DNA from: Streptomyces griseus subsp. griseus
GTDB taxonomy: Bacteria; Actinomycetota; Actinomycetes; Streptomycetales; Streptomycetaceae
NCBI RefSeq assembly: GCF_000720255.1
Contig: NZ_JOJE01000014.1
Location: 99,296-163,295 of the forward strand
Direction of reading: 5' to 3'
Length of the DNA stretch: 64,000 nt
A program made the position numbers and the translations under genes. Numbering within the stretch: position 1 is the first letter of the stretch; each line of letters opens with the position of its first letter. This document shows positions 4,980 through 64,000 of this stretch, in pieces. Under the pieces are notes generated by a model. That model ran no database searches. It was given only the letters and a program-made list of their open reading frames with translations, and was not told where the DNA came from.

Positions 4980-5734
4980 ACGACCCCAAGCCGGTTCTCC
5001 CTCACCCCCTGCCCGGCGCCGTCGGCCTGTCCCACCTCAGCGCCTACGACTGGGAGGCCGCCGACGGAATCTGCGGCGGCAGCCCGCACCTGCACCTGGT
5101 GTGCACGGAGGCGTACGTCGTCACCGGCGGCCGCGGCGCGGTCCAGACGCTGAGCCCCGACGGCTACCGGGACATCCCCCTGGAGCCCGGCTCGGTCGCC
5201 TGGTTCACGCCGGGCACCGTACACCGCATGGTGCAGGGCGGAGATCTCCGCATCACCGTGCTGATGCAGAACAGCGGCCTGCCCGAGGCGGGCGACGCCG
5301 TCTTCACCTTCCCGCCCGAGGTGCTCGCCGACCCCGAGAGGTACGCGGCCGCGGCCGCCCTCCCCGCCGGCACCGGACCTGAGACCGCGGCGGCCGCGCG
5401 CCGCCGCCGGGACCTCGCCGTCGAGGGATACCTCGTCCTGCGCGAGGCCCTGGTCGCCGGCGACACCGGCCCGTACCTCGCCTTCCAACGCGCCGCCGCT
5501 CAACTGGTCCGCGACAAGGTGCCCACCTGGCGCGAGCTGTGGCGGGCCGGCGCCCTGGCGACCGCCGAACGCACCGGCGCCCAGCTCGACGCGCTGGCGG
5601 ACGGCGAGCCGGCGTACCTCGACGAGGCCACCGCGCACGAGAGCGCGCCCACCCGCCTGGGCGGCTTCGGCATGTGCGGGCGGCGCGACGAGTACGCGCT
5701 GCCGGGGACGACCCTGCCGTACCAGGGCGAGTAA
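4976..5734 (+). CDS. cupin-domain protein
   Basis: The first 110 residues of this 252-residue protein form a cupin barrel: HLHLVCTEAYVVTGGRGAVQ, then LEPGSVAWFTPGTVHRMVQG with the second-motif histidine. The C-terminal half is helical and Ala/Arg-rich (AAAARRRRDLAVEGYLVLRE) with no family I recognise. The GTG at 4976 overlaps the preceding stop as GTGA and has GGAGGG (4961-4966) 9 nt upstream; a second GTG at 4973 is too close for the same spacing. Being coupled to the oxidoreductase and PmoA-like genes, it probably acts as an isomerase or sugar sensor, but the substrate is unknown. Confidence 0.75.
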   Translation: MNDPKPVLPHPLPGAVGLSHLSAYDWEAADGICGGSPHLHLVCTEAYVVTGGRGAVQTLSPDGYRDIPLEPGSVAWFTPGTVHRMVQGGDLRITVLMQNSGLPEAGDAVFTFPPEVLADPERYAAAAALPAGTGPETAAAARRRRDLAVEGYLVLREALVAGDTGPYLAFQRAAAQLVRDKVPTWRELWRAGALATAERTGAQLDALADGEPAYLDEATAHESAPTRLGGFGMCGRRDEYALPGTTLPYQGE

Positions 5735-57587: not shown

Positions 57588-57737
57588 GCAGTTGATCCAC
57601 GGCGTGCTGGTCGTCCTCGGGTGACCACGGTTCCGCGGGGCGGCCCTCGGGAAAGGCAAGATTCAGGACCAAGCCCGTCCAGACCAGGTTCGTCCCAAAA
57701 CCCAGTTTGGCGGCGAGCCACTCCTGAGAGGACGTTC
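57502..57737 (-). pseudogene. truncated hypothetical gene at the IS edge
   Basis: The minus strand reads SSQEWLAAKLGFGTNLVWTG, FPEGRPAEPWSPEDDQHAVD and LLILLDGYFGSLAGGPKADG up to a stop at 57502. The upstream part is replaced by the IS5 element, so this is a C-terminal remnant of an unknown protein. Confidence 0.6.
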
Positions 57738-57828
57738 TGAGCCGGTATGACTGTCTTGTGGTCGCCTGATCGTGTGGGTTTGGGCGGTTGGGGCTGGTCG
57801 AGCGGCTTGGTCCTGCTGCGCTGTTCGG

Positions 57829-58659
57829 GTGAGTGACCGCAAGCCCTACAAGAGCGACCTGTCCGATGAACGTTGGGCGCTGATCGAACCAGTGATCTCG
57901 GCATGGAAGGCCGAACACCCTTCTCCGACGGGCCATCAAGGCCGGTACGAGATACGGGAGATCGTGAACGCAATCCTGTACCAGGGCAGGACCGGCTGCC
58001 AGTGGGAATACCTCCCGCACGATCTGCCGCCGAAGTCGGCCGTCTACTACTACTTCGCGGCCTGGCGCGATGACGGCACGGACGTGAAGATCAACGACCT
58101 GCTGCGCTGGCAGGTCCGGGAGAGGGCCGGGAGGTCGGAGGATCCGAGCCTGGTCGTGATCGACACGCAGAGCGTCCACGCAGCGGTGAACGTGCCCGCG
58201 GCCACGACCGGGAAGGACGCGGCCAAGAAGGTGCCGGGTCGCAAGCGCGGACTTGCGGTGGACGTCCTCGGCCTGGTCATCGCCGTGACCGTGCTGGCCG
58301 CGAGCGCCCACGACAACGCCTTCGGGGTCGCTCTGCTCGGCCAGGTCGCCCCCATCGGCACCATCAAGAAGGCCCTGGTGGACCAGGGCTTCAAGAAGAC
58401 CGTCGTCGATCACGGCACCACGGTCGGCATCGACGTCGAGATCGTCGAGCGCAACCCCTCGGACAAGGGCGCCGGCTTCGTTCCGCAGGCCAAGAGGTGG
58501 ATCGTGGAGCAGACGCTCGGCATCCTTATGCTGTTCCGCCGGCTCGTACGGGACTACGAGAGCCGCCCGAAGACCTCCGAGTCCAGGGTACGTTGGGCCA
58601 TGATCGACGTGATAGCGCGCCGACTCACCGGCCAGACCACGCCCACCTGGCGCGGGTGA
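57829..58659 (+). CDS. IS5-family transposase
   Basis: The 276-residue protein is apparently complete. It has the N-terminal DUF4096 domain (YKSDLSDERWALIEPVISAW; GRTGCQWEYLPHDLPPKSAV) and a DDE catalytic core with the first Asp in VVIDTQSVHA and the Glu in RWIVEQTLGILMLFRRLVRD. GTG 57829 is the start supported by homology; the frame extends to 57772. The gene truncates a minus-strand gene to its left and lies 4 nt before the passenger gene. Confidence 0.9.
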   Translation: MSDRKPYKSDLSDERWALIEPVISAWKAEHPSPTGHQGRYEIREIVNAILYQGRTGCQWEYLPHDLPPKSAVYYYFAAWRDDGTDVKINDLLRWQVRERAGRSEDPSLVVIDTQSVHAAVNVPAATTGKDAAKKVPGRKRGLAVDVLGLVIAVTVLAASAHDNAFGVALLGQVAPIGTIKKALVDQGFKKTVVDHGTTVGIDVEIVERNPSDKGAGFVPQAKRWIVEQTLGILMLFRRLVRDYESRPKTSESRVRWAMIDVIARRLTGQTTPTWRG

Positions 58660-58663
58660 CCGC

Positions 58664-59080
58664 GTGGACGCCCAGGTCACACCGCTCCTGGAGCGGATCG
58701 ACGCACGCGAACGCGAGCTCGGCACCGCCGCGGAACAGCTCCGCACGCAGATCGACGAACTCACCGCGCGCCTGCGTGAACTCGACGAGGAGATCGAAAA
58801 CCTGGCGGTGACCCGCAAGACGCTCCTCGCCCTCCCGCCGACCGCCCCGGAACCGACCGAGGAGCCGCCCGCCCTGCCGGCCCACCCGGCCTACCAGCAG
58901 ATCCTCGGCACCTTCGCCGAGGCTCCCGGACCGAAGCGCGCCCGCGACCTGTGCCAGGCCCTGGACCTCCCGCTCACGGCGAAGAACATCGAGAGCATCC
59001 GACACAAGCTCAAGCGCCTGGTCAGCCTGGGTGTTCTTGCCGAGACCGAACCGGGCCTGTTTGCCCAGCGCCGCCCGTAG
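58664..59080 (+). CDS. coiled-coil/winged-helix passenger protein
   Basis: The 138-residue protein has an N-terminal coiled coil (LGTAAEQLRTQIDELTARLR) and a C-terminal winged-helix-like part (RARDLCQALDLPLTAKNIES, KLKRLVSLGVLAETEPGLFA). Closely similar proteins are familiar in Streptomyces, often next to IS transposases. Its GTG lies 4 nt after the transposase stop, suggesting one transcript. A regulatory or DNA-binding role in transposition is possible but unproven. Confidence 0.7.
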   Translation: MDAQVTPLLERIDARERELGTAAEQLRTQIDELTARLRELDEEIENLAVTRKTLLALPPTAPEPTEEPPALPAHPAYQQILGTFAEAPGPKRARDLCQALDLPLTAKNIESIRHKLKRLVSLGVLAETEPGLFAQRRP

Positions 59081-59149
59081 CAGCCCTCCAGCCCGGGCCA
59101 CCCGTCCGTCACGGCTGCCGCACTCGCCAGCCGGCTCACGACGCGATCG

Positions 59150-59800
59150 CTAGTGACCCGTCATGCGGAGCCACTGCATCGTTGTGACGAGCTCTTCGCC
59201 GAAGCCCTCGCAGAGCGCGAGCAACTCGCGACCCGTGGACGAGTCGAGCAGCCCTGCGGAATCGGGGAGAACCCCAAGAGCACCGTGGCAGGCTGTCTCG
59301 ACTGCGAAGTGGCGCGACGCGAAGTAGCCCTCGCCCGCCCGGTCCGCCAGGTCGGCGAGGTACTGACGGTGGGCTTCCTCCGCGGGGTGAGAGTAGAAGG
59401 AGCCCTCGACGAGACCGTCCAGGTAGTTCGCCAGGCCGGCCGACGCTTCGACCACTCGCCCGACTTCGTCCACGCCAGGCTTGTCCAGCAGTTCGCCGAA
59501 GGTCAGCAGGTTGCTGATGGTCTCCAACTGGAAAAGCTGGACCGTGTCCGGGTCGACTTCAGATGTGAAGAGCGGAGCCGTGCACAGCTCGGCGATTGCT
59601 CGCCGGTATGCGCCATCCGACTGTTCACCAGCGGGTGATGCTGCCAGTCGGAACAGCGACTCCAGCACAAACTGGTCGACGCCCCACTCTGCATCCAATT
59701 CGAACGCGAGTATCGGCGCGCGCCACCGCCACAGGGCCAGGACGGCCGCCTGCCGCTGGTGGACGGGCTTCAGGTCCGCCAATCGTTCGATCCGCACCAC
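59150..59800 (-). CDS. hypothetical protein (216 aa)
   Basis: I do not recognise the family. The protein is all-helical and acidic: VHQRQAAVLALWRWRAPILA, FELDAEWGVDQFVLESLFRL, then ASAGLANYLDGLVEGSFYSH. No signal peptide, membrane helix or catalytic motif is visible. Its size and neighbourhood resemble immunity-type proteins of polymorphic toxin loci. The GTG start has no clear ribosome binding site. Confidence 0.6.
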   Translation of the reverse strand: MVRIERLADLKPVHQRQAAVLALWRWRAPILAFELDAEWGVDQFVLESLFRLAASPAGEQSDGAYRRAIAELCTAPLFTSEVDPDTVQLFQLETISNLLTFGELLDKPGVDEVGRVVEASAGLANYLDGLVEGSFYSHPAEEAHRQYLADLADRAGEGYFASRHFAVETACHGALGVLPDSAGLLDSSTGRELLALCEGFGEELVTTMQWLRMTGH

Positions 59801-59940
59801 GTTTCTTGAGCCAGCCCTTCTGATCTACCGGCCCCCAGCCGCCCCCTTTACCTCGGGACACTGTAGAAGCCGCTGAAGGACCACGTGACCGCCAGGACCG
59901 CGCCTGGCACAAGCCAACTACGGGAATCGGTCATACCGGT

Positions 59941-60552
59941 TCAGAATGCCCTCTGAAACCCGTTCAGCAGGTCCCCTGCTGCCGCGACGTTGTAGCCGTT
60001 GAGGAACCCGGTCACCGACTCGAAGGTGACGCGGCCTACGAACATGCCCGGACGCGTCTTGAAGTCTTCCCAGAAATCCTGGCGGGACTGCACTGGCTTG
60101 CGCATGGCACGCCCCGCACGACTCCAGGCAGTGGGAATGTCCGACAGATCGCTGCCGACCCCCCACGTGGAGTACGAGACCACCTCCGGCCCCACGCCAA
60201 GCGCGGCAAGGAGCCTGCCCGCGCGCGCGGCCGAGTCGACCGGACCGCCCTTCCGGGTCCAGATGTGCGTTCCCGGAGCGTCCCCTTCGTGATGGGTAGC
60301 GACGAAATCCGTGCCCTCCACCACGAAGAACGCCGCCCGGACCCTGCCGTGTCCGTCCCACGAGGTCTCAAGAGTCAGCCTCAGCCGACGGGCCACCGCG
60401 TCCAAGTCCACCGAGAGACAGGCGAACGAGTACAAGGGCCACCCGACGCTTTGGAACATCGAGACTTGCCGGGCCGGATTGGGTCCGCCCGGGGGTTCTG
60501 TCGCGGGCTCCCAGCCGTCCTCCGCATCCGGTACGTACATCAGTTCAGTCAC
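59941..60552 (-). CDS. hypothetical protein (203 aa)
   Basis: Family not recognised. The N-terminal domain contains ARQVSMFQSVGWPLYSFACL and FVATHHEGDAPGTHIWTRKG. The C-terminal end DFWEDFKTRPGMFVGRVTFE then SVTGFLNGYN resembles a motif seen in small actinomycete proteins of toxin/immunity type. GTG 60552 gives VTELMYVP as the start; the frame is open to 60582. It is on the same strand as the 59150-59800 gene with a 140-nt gap. Confidence 0.55.
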   Translation of the reverse strand: MTELMYVPDAEDGWEPATEPPGGPNPARQVSMFQSVGWPLYSFACLSVDLDAVARRLRLTLETSWDGHGRVRAAFFVVEGTDFVATHHEGDAPGTHIWTRKGGPVDSAARAGRLLAALGVGPEVVSYSTWGVGSDLSDIPTAWSRAGRAMRKPVQSRQDFWEDFKTRPGMFVGRVTFESVTGFLNGYNVAAAGDLLNGFQRAF

Positions 60553-60651
60553 AGGGACAGTCAACCAGCACGCGGCGGCCACGATGTGACGGCCGACAGC
60601 AGTCTTGCAGCACCCACGACCAGCTGTTCACGCAACTACGGCCAGAGCCGC

Positions 60652-60802
60652 TTTCAAAGAGCGTCATCAGGGGTAGCTCGGTGGCCATGGGGGCCATCGG
60701 GATCCGCATGGCGTCGTCCCCGCGCCCGCGGGGGTAGCTCCACGCGGTCGACCTTGCCGGCGGTGGTGCCCGTGTCGTCCCCACGCCCGCGGGTGTCTGT
60801 AA
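60652..60802. CRISPR. fossil type I-E CRISPR array (three repeats, two spacers)
   Basis: One intact 29-bp repeat at 60713-60741 (starts GTCGTCCCCGCGCCCGCGGG, ends GGTAGCTCC) has the dyad GCGCCCGCG typical of actinomycete I-E repeats. At exactly +61 lies a repeat whose 5' part is kept (60774-60802), and at -61 one whose 3' part is kept (60652-60680, AGGGGTAGCTC). The two spacers, 60681-60712 and 60742-60773, are both 32 nt. No cas gene is in the window. Confidence 0.8.
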
Positions 60803-60936
60803 GCACTTCCTTGGGCTCCACCGCACGGAACTGAAGTGGCTCCCCGCGTGAGAAGTTGATCTGGCTCCACTCTGCGCTCATGGCGCTTCATGGATCTTGG
60901 ACGTCGGGATAGGGTCCGGCGGGAGGTGCGGGGGAA

Positions 60937-61410
60937 ATGAGTTTCCGACTGGCGGCGTATGCCGTGTGCATTGAGGGCGGGCGGGTACTGCTCGCCCGTC
61001 ACGTGCCGTTGAAGGGCGAGAGCAACTGGACCCTTCCGGGCGGCAGGGTCGAGCACGCGGAGGATCCGTTCGACGCGGTGATCAGGGAAGTCGCTGAGGA
61101 GACCGGCTGTGATGCGGTGGTCGAACGCCTGCTGGGAGTGGACTCCCGTGTGATCCCGGCGGCTGAACGTGCCGTCCCCGGCGGACCGGAGCATCAGAAT
61201 GTCGGCGTCTTCTACCAGGTTCGTATCACCGGCGGCCAGCTGCGGCCCGAGCCGAACGGCAAAATTGTTGAGTCGGTCTGGACTCCGATTCCCGATGTTG
61301 CTTGCCTGCGCCGGTCATCGCTGGTCGACATCGGCCTCGCCCTGGCTCAGACGCTTCCGGCAACCGGCCACGTCGCTCCCGTCCCGGTCGGCGGCCTGAT
61401 CCAGCACTGA
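60937..61410 (+). CDS. NUDIX hydrolase
   Basis: The 157-residue protein has the NUDIX box GGRVEHAEDPFDAVIREVAE followed by ETG, embedded in a standard fold starting FRLAAYAVCIEGGRVLLARH. The acidic residues bind magnesium for hydrolysis of nucleoside-diphosphate-type substrates. GGGGG lies 3-4 nt before the ATG. It is unrelated by strand or spacing to the CRISPR relic upstream. Confidence 0.87.
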   Translation: MSFRLAAYAVCIEGGRVLLARHVPLKGESNWTLPGGRVEHAEDPFDAVIREVAEETGCDAVVERLLGVDSRVIPAAERAVPGGPEHQNVGVFYQVRITGGQLRPEPNGKIVESVWTPIPDVACLRRSSLVDIGLALAQTLPATGHVAPVPVGGLIQH

Positions 61411-61805
61411 GGCGCCATCAACAATCCGAACTGGCTTCCCCGCAGACGGCGCCGTTCGCCGGTGGGCCGGTCGGCAGTACCGCGACGCCCTTTGGGGTGA
61501 ATGCACTGGTCCGTCCGCTCAGCAACGGCAGGGATTGTGCGTCGATCACGGTCATGTCGGAGTCCGTGTTGCTTGATCACGGTCATGTCGGGAGGCCGCC
61601 CCAGTCGCCAACCCAGTCCGCAATTGGCTCTTCGGCTCGAGGACCTCGTTGCTTCCGGCGCCGATAGCGACCAGCACAGGTGAAGCTCAGCTCCACCGCT
61701 ATCGGTGCCCCTGCTCGGCGGGGGCCTCGATAGGCGTCTCAGCCCCAGACCAAGAGCGTCGATGACCAGGCCGCACCCGTTGGTAACAGTTGTTACCATG
61801 CATGA
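61411..61805. other. 395-bp interval with a short direct repeat
   Basis: No gene is supported. GATCACGGTCATGTCGG occurs at 61544-61560 and again at 61575-61591 (period 31). The right end carries the promoter and operator of the following gene pair. Confidence 0.55.
61781..61799 (+). promoter_or_regulatory. palindromic operator and leaderless promoter of the TA-like operon
   Basis: TGGTAACA-GT-TGTTACCA (61781-61798) is a perfect inverted repeat with a 2-nt centre. Its right arm contains the -10 hexamer TACCAT (61794-61799), which ends 6 nt before ATG 61806. Binding would block transcription directly. Confidence 0.7.
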
Positions 61806-62045
61806 ATGGCAAAGACTCAGCTTGGCGTACGCATCGACCCCGAGGTCAAGAAACTTGCCCAGGCCCGGGCCAAGGACCGCGGCCTGGACCTCGGGGACTA
61901 CATCGCCGGTCTCGTCCGTGACGACGCCGACGGCCTGCGCCAGCGCGGCCTGGACGCCGCTCGCCGCTTCCTCGACGAGCACCAGCAGCTCTTCGACGAG
62001 GCCGAGGACACCGACCGCAACGCGCCGGGAGCACACGCCGCGTAA
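61806..62045 (+). CDS. ribbon-helix-helix-like antitoxin candidate
   Basis: The 79-residue protein starts AKTQLGVRIDPEVKKLAQAR, the beta-strand/helix pattern of ribbon-helix-helix regulators, continues with GLDLGDYIAGLVRDDADGLR and ends in an acidic tail (DEHQQLFDEAEDTDRNAPGA) suited to covering a toxin. It overlaps the next gene by one base. The palindrome over its promoter fits autoregulation. Antitoxin identity is inferred from this arrangement. Confidence 0.72.
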   Translation: MAKTQLGVRIDPEVKKLAQARAKDRGLDLGDYIAGLVRDDADGLRQRGLDAARRFLDEHQQLFDEAEDTDRNAPGAHAA

Positions 62046-62422
62046 TGGAACTGCACATCGACGTCCCCTGGATCCTCCAAGTCGCAGAAATGGCCGGCGC
62101 AGGAGACCCGGCCCCCGACGACTACGGCGTGCCGGTAGCCGCCGTCGCCTGCCACAAAGCCGAACTGCTGGAGCAGCCGGTTTACGACGGCCCCTACGCC
62201 CGAGCTGCGGCGTTGGTCCACGTCCTCGGCCGCTGCCGCTGGCTGGAGCGCTCCAACATGGCGGTCGCCGCGGCCACAGGCGTCATGTACCTGGAAGCCT
62301 CCGGGATCCCGGTCAAACCCACCCGCGAGGACGCGCTTGCCTTGCGTGACCTGCTACGCAACCCCGCCTGCGCTGCTACCGGGATCACCGCCCTGCTGCG
62401 CACATGGCCCGTTGCCAGCTGA
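62045..62422 (+). CDS. toxin candidate, Fic/Doc-like in size and context
   Basis: The 125-residue protein follows the antitoxin candidate with a one-base overlap (TAATG). It is helical with the central block PYARAAALVHVLGRCRWLER then SNMAVAAATGVMYLEASG. This placement of an N and an aromatic-rich helix recalls Doc-type toxins (Doc: small Fic-fold kinases of EF-Tu), but the canonical HxFx(D/N)GNKR loop is not intact: SNMAVAAATG stands in its place. Its biochemical activity is therefore open. Confidence 0.62.
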   Translation: MELHIDVPWILQVAEMAGAGDPAPDDYGVPVAAVACHKAELLEQPVYDGPYARAAALVHVLGRCRWLERSNMAVAAATGVMYLEASGIPVKPTREDALALRDLLRNPACAATGITALLRTWPVAS

Positions 62423-63129
62423 CCCCAGCACGGCCCTGCTGCGGTTCCCGGCTGAGGAGGCTCCCGGCCTGGCCGTGCAGGTGATGACCGGGATGTAGAC
62501 GTGCAAGCCCAGCAGGAAGCCTCAACGAGTCCGGGGTGTGGAACGCGAGGACAGTGGCGGGGAGAGCATGGCGGGTGGTCGGATAGGGCGGATCTGGCGT
62601 CGACCCCGCCAGCGCCCCCGGTCGCCCAACAGCCGTGAGACATGCGGGAGGGGTTCCGCGCTACGTGAGGACGGCAGGATGCCCGAAGCGCTGGTGGCGT
62701 CGGGCTGCGCAGACGCCTCCCGCAGCTTGGCCACGTATTCGTCGGGGCAGGCTGCGAACACCTCTTGGCCAATGCCGCCGGGGCTGCCCCTACGTTCAGT
62801 GCAATGCCCAAGCCAGACAAGCCCAGATGCCGACGGAGCTGATCGCGCACGAAGGGCAGTACGCGGCAATGTTCGCGGCGCAGCCGAGGGCTACCAGTCC
62901 GGGACCGCAGGGTCGGAGGAGACCGTTCTGGCACAACCCGTGAAGGCGAGAAGGTGACATGGCTCCTCGCCGCCGTGGCGGTTTTTCTGCGGGTGATCGA
63001 GCGTCATGGCCAGCGATGACGGCGATGAGCCGGATCTTGCTGATGGTCGGCCTGCCTCGCTGCTGCCCCGGAGAGCGCATCCAGCCGGATTCGTGGTGCC
63101 CCGAGCGGTGCGCTGGATAGGTTGCTCCG
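62423..63129. other. 707-bp interval without a recognised gene
   Basis: Several open frames exist on both strands, but none has protein character I can support. A minus-strand stretch around 62600-62760 (EYVAKLREASAQPDATSASG) may be a decayed gene. The right end holds a TAGGTT hexamer before the next gene. Confidence 0.5.
63118..63123 (+). promoter_or_regulatory. -10 element of a leaderless hypothetical gene
   Basis: TAGGTT ends exactly 6 nt before ATG 63130, with no ribosome binding site. Confidence 0.4.
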
Positions 63130-63816
63130 ATGAAGCTGCCCGCGTACTGGATGACGCGTCCTGCTCCACCCCCGGACCGCAGAACATCAACATCCTTCGA
63201 CCGACTGCTGGAGCAAGCGCTCGCGAACGGTCCCGATGAGCCCATCGACTACCGGCTCGATGCGCCGAGATGGCAGTTCCTCTGCCATGCCGCAGACCGC
63301 GGCAGGCTGCTGTTGCACGGCTCGGGTGACCCGGCGATCAGCCGCTTCGAACCGCGGCAGCCGGATGACAGCAGTGAGTTCGGCAACCGGCGCGCGGTCT
63401 TCGCCGCCGGCGACGGGCTCTGGCCGATGTACTACGCGATCCTGGACCGGGCCCGCCACCCGATGTCGTTGATCAATGGCTGCGCCCGTCTCGCCAATGG
63501 CAGCGAGCGGCTCGGCGAGCCGCACTACTACTTCTCCATCAGCGCGCAGGCGCTGAAGCAGCAGCCCTGGCGTCCCGGCACGGTGTACCTGCTGCCGGCC
63601 AGCACCTTTGAGCTGCAGCCGCGGATGCGGGTCGGCGATGTCTCGGTGCAGCCAGCCCAATGGGCAAGTCCCGTACCAGTGACCCCTGTCGCCAAACTGG
63701 CCGTGCGGCCGGAGGACTTCCCGTTCCTGGACCAGATTCGCGGCCATGACGATGAGCGGGTCTGGGCTCGTGCCGCCGCGGACCCGGATGGCTTCCCCTG
63801 GCATGAGAGGGCGTGA
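63130..63816 (+). CDS. hypothetical protein (228 aa)
   Basis: Family not recognised. The conserved-looking core is RGRLLLHGSGDPAISRFEPR, DDSSEFGNRRAVFAAGDGLW and PMYYAILDRARHPMSLINGC, followed by YYFSISAQALKQQPWRPGTV and YLLPASTFELQ. The order LLHG, FGNRRAVFA and aromatic strands recalls the single-domain ADP-ribosyltransferase-like folds, but no complete catalytic R-S-E set can be shown. It has no signal peptide and a probable leaderless start. The stop lies 78 nt from the converging mycoredoxin-like gene. Confidence 0.65.
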   Translation: MKLPAYWMTRPAPPPDRRTSTSFDRLLEQALANGPDEPIDYRLDAPRWQFLCHAADRGRLLLHGSGDPAISRFEPRQPDDSSEFGNRRAVFAAGDGLWPMYYAILDRARHPMSLINGCARLANGSERLGEPHYYFSISAQALKQQPWRPGTVYLLPASTFELQPRMRVGDVSVQPAQWASPVPVTPVAKLAVRPEDFPFLDQIRGHDDERVWARAAADPDGFPWHERA

Positions 63817-63894
63817 CACATGCGGTGCGGCGCGGCTGAGCCCGCTTGGGTTGCCGGGCCCTGAGCTTGTCTTTTAACCTCGGTTGCGTTCCGA

Positions 63895-64000
63895 TCACGC
63901 GGAACGGGAGAGTTGCTCGCGCACCCATGCGGGATCGGGATTGGTGTGCGGCTGACCCGCCACGACGACGGTCGGCACGGTCTCGTTGCCGTCGTTGGCT
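63895..64000 (-). CDS. glutaredoxin/mycoredoxin-like protein, C-terminal part
   Basis: Only the last 35 codons are in the window: ANDGNETVPTVVVAGQPHTN then PDPAWVREQLSRSA and a stop. GNETVPTVVV with the cis-proline is the conserved second half of mycoredoxin-type glutaredoxins, which reduce mycothiol mixed disulfides in actinobacteria. The CxxC active site lies beyond the edge. Confidence 0.75.
   Translation of the reverse strand, partial: ANDGNETVPTVVVAGQPHTNPDPAWVREQLSRSA

Follow-up and report, generated by a model that had tools for sequence, protein, structure and literature searches.

A short type I-E CRISPR remnant held between two mobile-element ends in Streptomyces griseus

When a bacterial genome holds only one whole CRISPR repeat, with partial copies on either side, two questions arise: whether these letters ever belonged to a CRISPR array, and what reduced the array to so little. 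Such a case lies in a 64,000-nt stretch of Streptomyces griseus subsp. griseus (contig NZ_JOJE01000014.1, positions 99,296 to 163,295), referred to here as the window, in which positions refer to its forward strand. A first-pass annotation, made from the letters alone, regarded the site as a fossil type I-E array with half-decayed outer repeats. Herein, the repeat, its borders and its spacers were compared with related genomes, plasmids and phages.

The geometry described in that annotation was confirmed. A perfect 29-bp repeat occupies 60713-60741, and partial repeats start at 60652 on the left and 60774 on the right, so that the three repeat registers are spaced exactly 61 and 61 bp from start to start. 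Across 2 x 63,973 window registers on both strands, the last ten bases of the 28-mer (positions 19-28) were matched only in the registers starting at 60652 and 60713, and at least 17 of its first 20 bases only in those at 60713 and 60774, each with at least 19; no other in-register partial matches of such quality occur in the window. With up to three mismatches allowed, the full 29-mer had one match in the window, against none in 100 shuffles, and the same single match in the whole genome. Neither an intact array with the same repeat nor a second copy of the repeat at that threshold was therefore found in the genome, and with fewer than two whole repeats the locus is filed as a remnant rather than an array. 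Repeat positions 1-19 were also used to look for a second array piece elsewhere, and none stood out: at up to three mismatches they matched 131 places genome-wide (86 for a backwards control), and among the matches listed only the two window sites had at most one mismatch, the others having two or three.

The 61-bp period was correctly recognised by the first reading, which divided it into a 29-bp repeat and 32-nt spacers. Since repeat position 29 is variable in 10 of 10 related array strands, from nine loci, a division into 28 bp of repeat and 33 nt of spacer describes the unit more accurately. On this basis the CRISPR letters proper comprise 124 bp (60670-60793), all read on the plus strand. 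They begin with the 3' part of a repeat (60670-60679, positions 19-28, 10/10 match, 61 bp before the whole repeat), followed by spacer 1 of 33 nt, placed by geometry (60680-60712), the intact 28-bp repeat (60713-60740), spacer 2 of 33 nt (60741-60773, to which base 60741, the former position 29, is assigned) and the 5' part of a repeat (60774-60793, positions 1-20, 19/20 match with an A at 60783, 61 bp after the whole repeat). The adjoining letters, 60652-60669 and 60794-60802, are mobile-element end letters and lie outside the CRISPR remnant.

The type I-E assignment is borne out by related arrays. The window's 28-mer recurs exactly in 49 of 49 repeats of one array in a related genome, G101 (locus L033), in 34 of 37 of an array in genome G377 (L034), and in 23 of 26 of an array on plasmid NZ_CP108855.1 (L121). 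It accounts for 5 of 20 repeats in L027 and 4 of 10 in L092; in the five remaining strands every repeat is a near variant and none is the exact 28-mer. Arrays with the same 28-mer have a 61-bp period and 33-nt spacers. In G101, genes for Cse1, Cas7e, Cas6e and Cas3 adjoin arrays carrying this 28-mer, and on NZ_CP108855.1 the order cas3-casA-casB-cas7e-cas5e-cas6e lies beside an array with the window's repeat. This plasmid is a linear Streptomyces plasmid; cas1 and cas2 are absent from the gene table of the stretch, which is itself incomplete. As this 28-mer makes up cas-adjacent arrays both in G101 and on a plasmid of Streptomyces, 60670-60793 is, as judged by sequence comparison, a genuine piece of a type I-E array. 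Compared with the arrays of G101 and NZ_CP108855.1, with which it shares the 28-bp repeat, the period and the spacer length, the remnant has only two spacers and a single whole repeat; a leader is missing from the window, no cas family was found, and both of its outer repeats are cut by mobile elements. The intact repeat is predicted to fold as a hairpin (-13.7 kcal/mol, z -1.36; -5.9 and -4.9 kcal/mol for the partial repeats), and an Rfam search of 60400-61000 returned no family at E up to 1, a result counted on the side of a chance resemblance or an unrelated hairpin family. Against an exact I-E repeat, 61-bp spacing on both sides and long cas-adjacent arrays of the same 28-mer, that explanation is already refuted and retains practically no probability; the repeat did not turn out to belong to a conserved gene or hairpin family outside CRISPR, as the first-pass annotation had allowed it might, and its likeness to I-E repeats is complete.

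The borders of the remnant tell how its outer repeats became partial. On the left, the cut falls at 60669|60670, where the repeat gives way to an ISL3-type element end (GGCCAGAGCCGCTTTCAAAGAGCGTCATCA, 60640-60669, plus strand), which has one mismatch to an end shared with other loci. This end recurs at L035 7180-7209, at L036 7180-7209 and, inverted, 5137-5166, and at L039 5385-5414; these four ends (at most four mismatches) stop at the same TCATCA letters, and the letters outside them differ. In L035, an ISL3 transposase ORF (NF033550, 319 bits against a cut-off of 180) lies between two such ends, the second with nine mismatches. The window resembles these transposase-bearing ISL3 elements in its end and differs from them in having that one end only and no identified ISL3 transposase, which was seen in relatives only; no second ISL3-type end occurs in the window at up to nine mismatches, and in the genome as a whole only the window copy is full-length, besides seven short weak matches. 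The ISL3 assignment of the left side is a putative one, taken from the shared end and nothing further. The gene beside this end (59944-60582) has no Pfam or NCBIfam match. Among relatives the left boundary is uneven: similarity to L026 ends at 60655, whereas that to L025 continues to 60673, and L030 can be aligned, weakly and with gaps, as far as 60698.

On the right, the repeat is cut at 60793|60794 by the end of an IS21-family element (TGTCTGTAAGCACTTCC..., 60794-60870, plus strand). The same end is present in 20 loci of other genomes, with different upstream letters in all of them. In L016 such an end adjoins an IS21 transposase (NF033546, 224 bits against a cut-off of 160). In L044 there is a copy of 3,044 bp whose two ends are inverted and which shows, as read by eye, a 6-bp direct repeat. 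The window shares its end with these transposase-bearing IS21 elements and differs from them in holding one end only: no second IS21-type end was found across 59001 to 64000 at up to nine mismatches, and no IS21 transposase was identified in the window. The idea that both sides were ends of a single element was dropped, as the transposase families differ (ISL3 versus IS21).

These findings change the reading of the two partial repeats, which had been called half-decayed. Their missing parts coincide with mobile-element ends and their surviving parts match the repeat at 10/10 (left) and 19/20 (right) bases; because those same ends are found at unrelated sites elsewhere, the partial repeats are best regarded as cut rather than mutated. 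In Escherichia and Salmonella, terminal repeats are almost always 3'-degenerate, as described in the part of PMC2886076 considered here, and the orientation of the remnant fits a right partial repeat that is simply the natural terminal repeat of the array, with the element merely adjacent. From 60794 onward, though, the letters are those of the IS21-type end common to the 20 loci, so no degenerate letters are left to explain; this account is also silent on the left cut, and it is highly improbable.

Altogether, the remnant is very probably the last piece of a type I-E array that was cut on both sides by mobile-element ends. An ISL3-type element end would have cut the array inside one repeat on the leader side, and an IS21-family element end inside a repeat 122 bp further on; the leader, the remaining spacers and the cas genes would then have been lost through insertion and element-adjacent deletion, or through later rearrangement. 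We infer the order of these events, the deletion step and the former presence of the locus at this site. Since both flanking elements lack a second end in the searched stretch, no target-site duplication can be read there, and cutting in place stays unproven. With no second recognisable element end in that stretch, the piece could stem from either of the two origins proposed at first, a decayed locus or a fragment carried by recombination. A related view holds that erosion did not happen at this site and that the piece arrived as a fragment flanked by two mobile elements, for example by recombination between copies or by capture at a break. The mobile-element ends on both sides would fit such transport, as would an IS5-family insertion close by (57772-58656) and the occurrence of similar arrays on Streptomyces plasmids and near the end of the 9.26-Mb contig of G101 (54.7-74.4 kb). 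Searches for the predicted traces speak against it: neither the fragment nor its junctions turned up a second time, each spacer is unique to its own genome among 392 genomes of the genus (at most three mismatches), and no place on a plasmid covers 80% of the stretch. Transport of a fragment is, on balance, rather unlikely. The nearby IS5-family element spans about 57728-59952, has similar inverted ends and encodes a transposase at 57772-58656 (NF033580, 153.5 bits) together with further ORFs without known function; genome G221 (L026) preserves the uninterrupted site of this insertion, with a 4-base overlap.

The cutting of the array by two elements is accompanied by a lack of the machinery that would use it. 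Cse1, Cas1, Cas7e and Cas3-HD had no match in the draft genome (265 contigs, 99.82% complete), so that the original remark on the absence of cas genes from the window extends genome-wide for the four families tested, within this draft. Of 14 control genomes, just 2 were positive with PF09481 and 2 with PF09344, and E. coli was missed by both, so a very divergent I-E set could escape them, and PF09481 was positive in 25 of 60 same-genus relatives (37 of 100 genomes overall), which indicates that the search works in this group. The contig ends with the window, 3.2 kb from the remnant. In addition, the leader-repeat junction of related arrays had no match in the window at up to three mismatches. 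Since a leader, cas genes and further whole repeats are all missing, the remnant is almost certainly inert and would yield no guide RNA.

According to the first-pass annotation, the remaining spacers may record an old invader, and this probably holds for one of them. At up to three mismatches, each spacer matched only its own genome among the 392 genomes of the genus, and neither is shared with the 281 spacers of related arrays (best 20/33 for spacer 1 and 19/33 for spacer 2). The suggested BLAST comparisons gave nothing significant for either: for spacer 1 the best E was 3 against phages and, among the matches listed, 0.2 against plasmids; for spacer 2 the best values among the matches listed were 0.08 and 0.2, respectively. 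In three scans of viral contigs with 19-21-nt parts, spacer 1 had no hits, and no source was found for it. Three scans of viral contigs with spacer 2 gave one hit each (L099, L100 and L130), and one backwards 20-mer gave none. Two of the three were rejected as chance-like, namely L099 (26/33, flank GC in place of AA) and L100 (22/33), from which it follows that a 20-mer match alone proves nothing for this spacer.

In L130 (4,982 bp, about 71% GC), positions 1280-1312 are identical to spacer 2 at 28 of 33 bases, including 26 of the first 27, and carry an AA flank. Two of the five mismatches are synonymous third-codon bases and the other three fall within one codon, so that the encoded peptides (TGTTAGKVDRV and DGTTAGKVDRV) share 10 of their 11 residues. 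The L130 gene, a virion-region gene, is homologous to gene 9 of the Streptomyces phages Hiyaa, Keanu and Spocter (55-57% identical), which in Hiyaa and Keanu is separated from the major capsid gene by one gene. Among 27 loci with a gene-9 homologue, the corresponding site was the best strand match to spacer 2 in seven, all seven preceded by AA. The seven flanks do not count as independent observations, since their AA derives from a conserved TTC codon, and for the remaining 20 loci the best match lay elsewhere. On the same loci, the highest values were 25/33 and 21/27 for 269 spacers of related arrays, 25 and 22 for 300 shuffles of spacer 2, and 22 and 19 for spacer 1, a control that is lenient because L130 was picked for its match. 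The AA flank is consistent with one of two phage matches of a G377 array spacer: in the primase gene of phage Spernnie this spacer matches at 30/33 with GGAA before the first C, hence the same AA, and in phage GreenWeasel at 30/33 with GTA. Two phage matches of the G101 array failed as flank evidence, reaching 18-22 of 33. Taken from sequence similarity, a phage origin of spacer 2 is likely, with a tailed phage akin to the Hiyaa group as the probable donor.

Orphan CRISPR remnants are already known, and each part of the present one is of a known kind. In the portion of PMC9071438 considered here, orphan arrays on plasmids and chromosomes are described as possible remnants of decaying systems; these are likewise short, with array letters and no cas genes, whereas the remnant falls short of two whole repeats, and an IS family can be named for each of its ends and a phage gene for one of its spacers. 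Similarly, the part of PMC2886076 considered here describes degraded CRISPR/cas loci with IS insertions in Escherichia and Shigella, where single-repeat and transposase-interrupted CRISPRs were recognised. The remnant shares with these the insertion elements in a degraded CRISPR-Cas locus, but it stems from another genus and nothing of the cas operon was found. Among the titles and abstract openings retrieved in a literature search, none dealt with IS21 ends in Streptomyces I-E arrays, which is not proof of absence in print. The remnant suggests that a CRISPR-Cas locus can end by cuts that leave the repeat letters nearly intact and not only through slow mutation of the repeats. As such scars fall below the usual two-repeat detection limit, the loss of CRISPR immunity may be undercounted. 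Furthermore, a defunct spacer whose phage gene can still be recognised would be a small fossil record of a past infection.

Whether IS21-type ends meet CRISPR arrays more often was assessed across the genus. The exact 16-mer of the end had 24 matches in 18 of 392 genomes, and three of the 24 lie within I-E arrays, that of the window and two in G101, which cut one array after repeat position 12 and another 29 nt into a spacer. The G101 locus (C1, 54.7-74.4 kb; L033 and L092) is a complete-looking I-E locus near a contig end, bracketed by two outward-facing IS21-type ends. A junction scan of genome contigs added one more candidate, L090 of Streptomyces sp. A3M-1-3 (NZ_JANAVP010000024.1), which has one repeat-like stub (GTCGTCCCCACGCGTGCC) and, directly after it, a palindromic stub of IS21-type ends 35 bp long; judged by eye, an apparent tRNA gene lies nearby. 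A preference of this group of IS21-family elements for CRISPR arrays, in the sense of a targeted and recurrent attack, could be read from three of 24 ends lying in arrays although arrays make up only about 0.04% of G101, with L090 as one further candidate. It is nonetheless very unlikely: 21 of the 24 ends are outside arrays and the window was the starting point; the other two array ends come from one genome, 54-74 kb from a contig end in an insertion-rich region; no two of the three cut points are alike; among the 24 are two pairs, in G218 and G299, each from one genome and identical in their flanks, as well as some ends with little IS21 similarity beyond the 16-mer; and the 8 kb of L090 contain no further repeat. 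The recurrence may instead reflect insertion-rich chromosome arms, and a tendency of IS21 ends to cut arrays is suggestive only. The broader claim, that IS21-family elements recurrently sever I-E arrays in the genus and are a regular cause of CRISPR loss that leaves short two-sided scars, is likewise unlikely. If it were true, mobile elements that are normally targets of CRISPR would regularly bring it to an end, and some of the scars would hold a readable memory of phages.

The IS21-type end at the right border is also linked to a gene. A NUDIX gene lies behind it (60937-61410, plus strand; PF00293, 60 bits), and end and gene occur together in other genomes: similarity is unbroken from the IS21-type end to at least 61408 in eight other loci (L003-L008, L014 and L022), and L017 shares part of the stretch. 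Further on, the region 61490-61598 (plus strand) is found in L016 just before the start of the istA/transposase gene, and the window's IS21 similarity halts at 61598. In genome G386 (L043, 6232-7255), the NUDIX gene sits in an element of 1,024 bp that is bounded by two inverted IS21-type ends and is too small to accommodate istAB; it is possibly a passenger-only mobile element.
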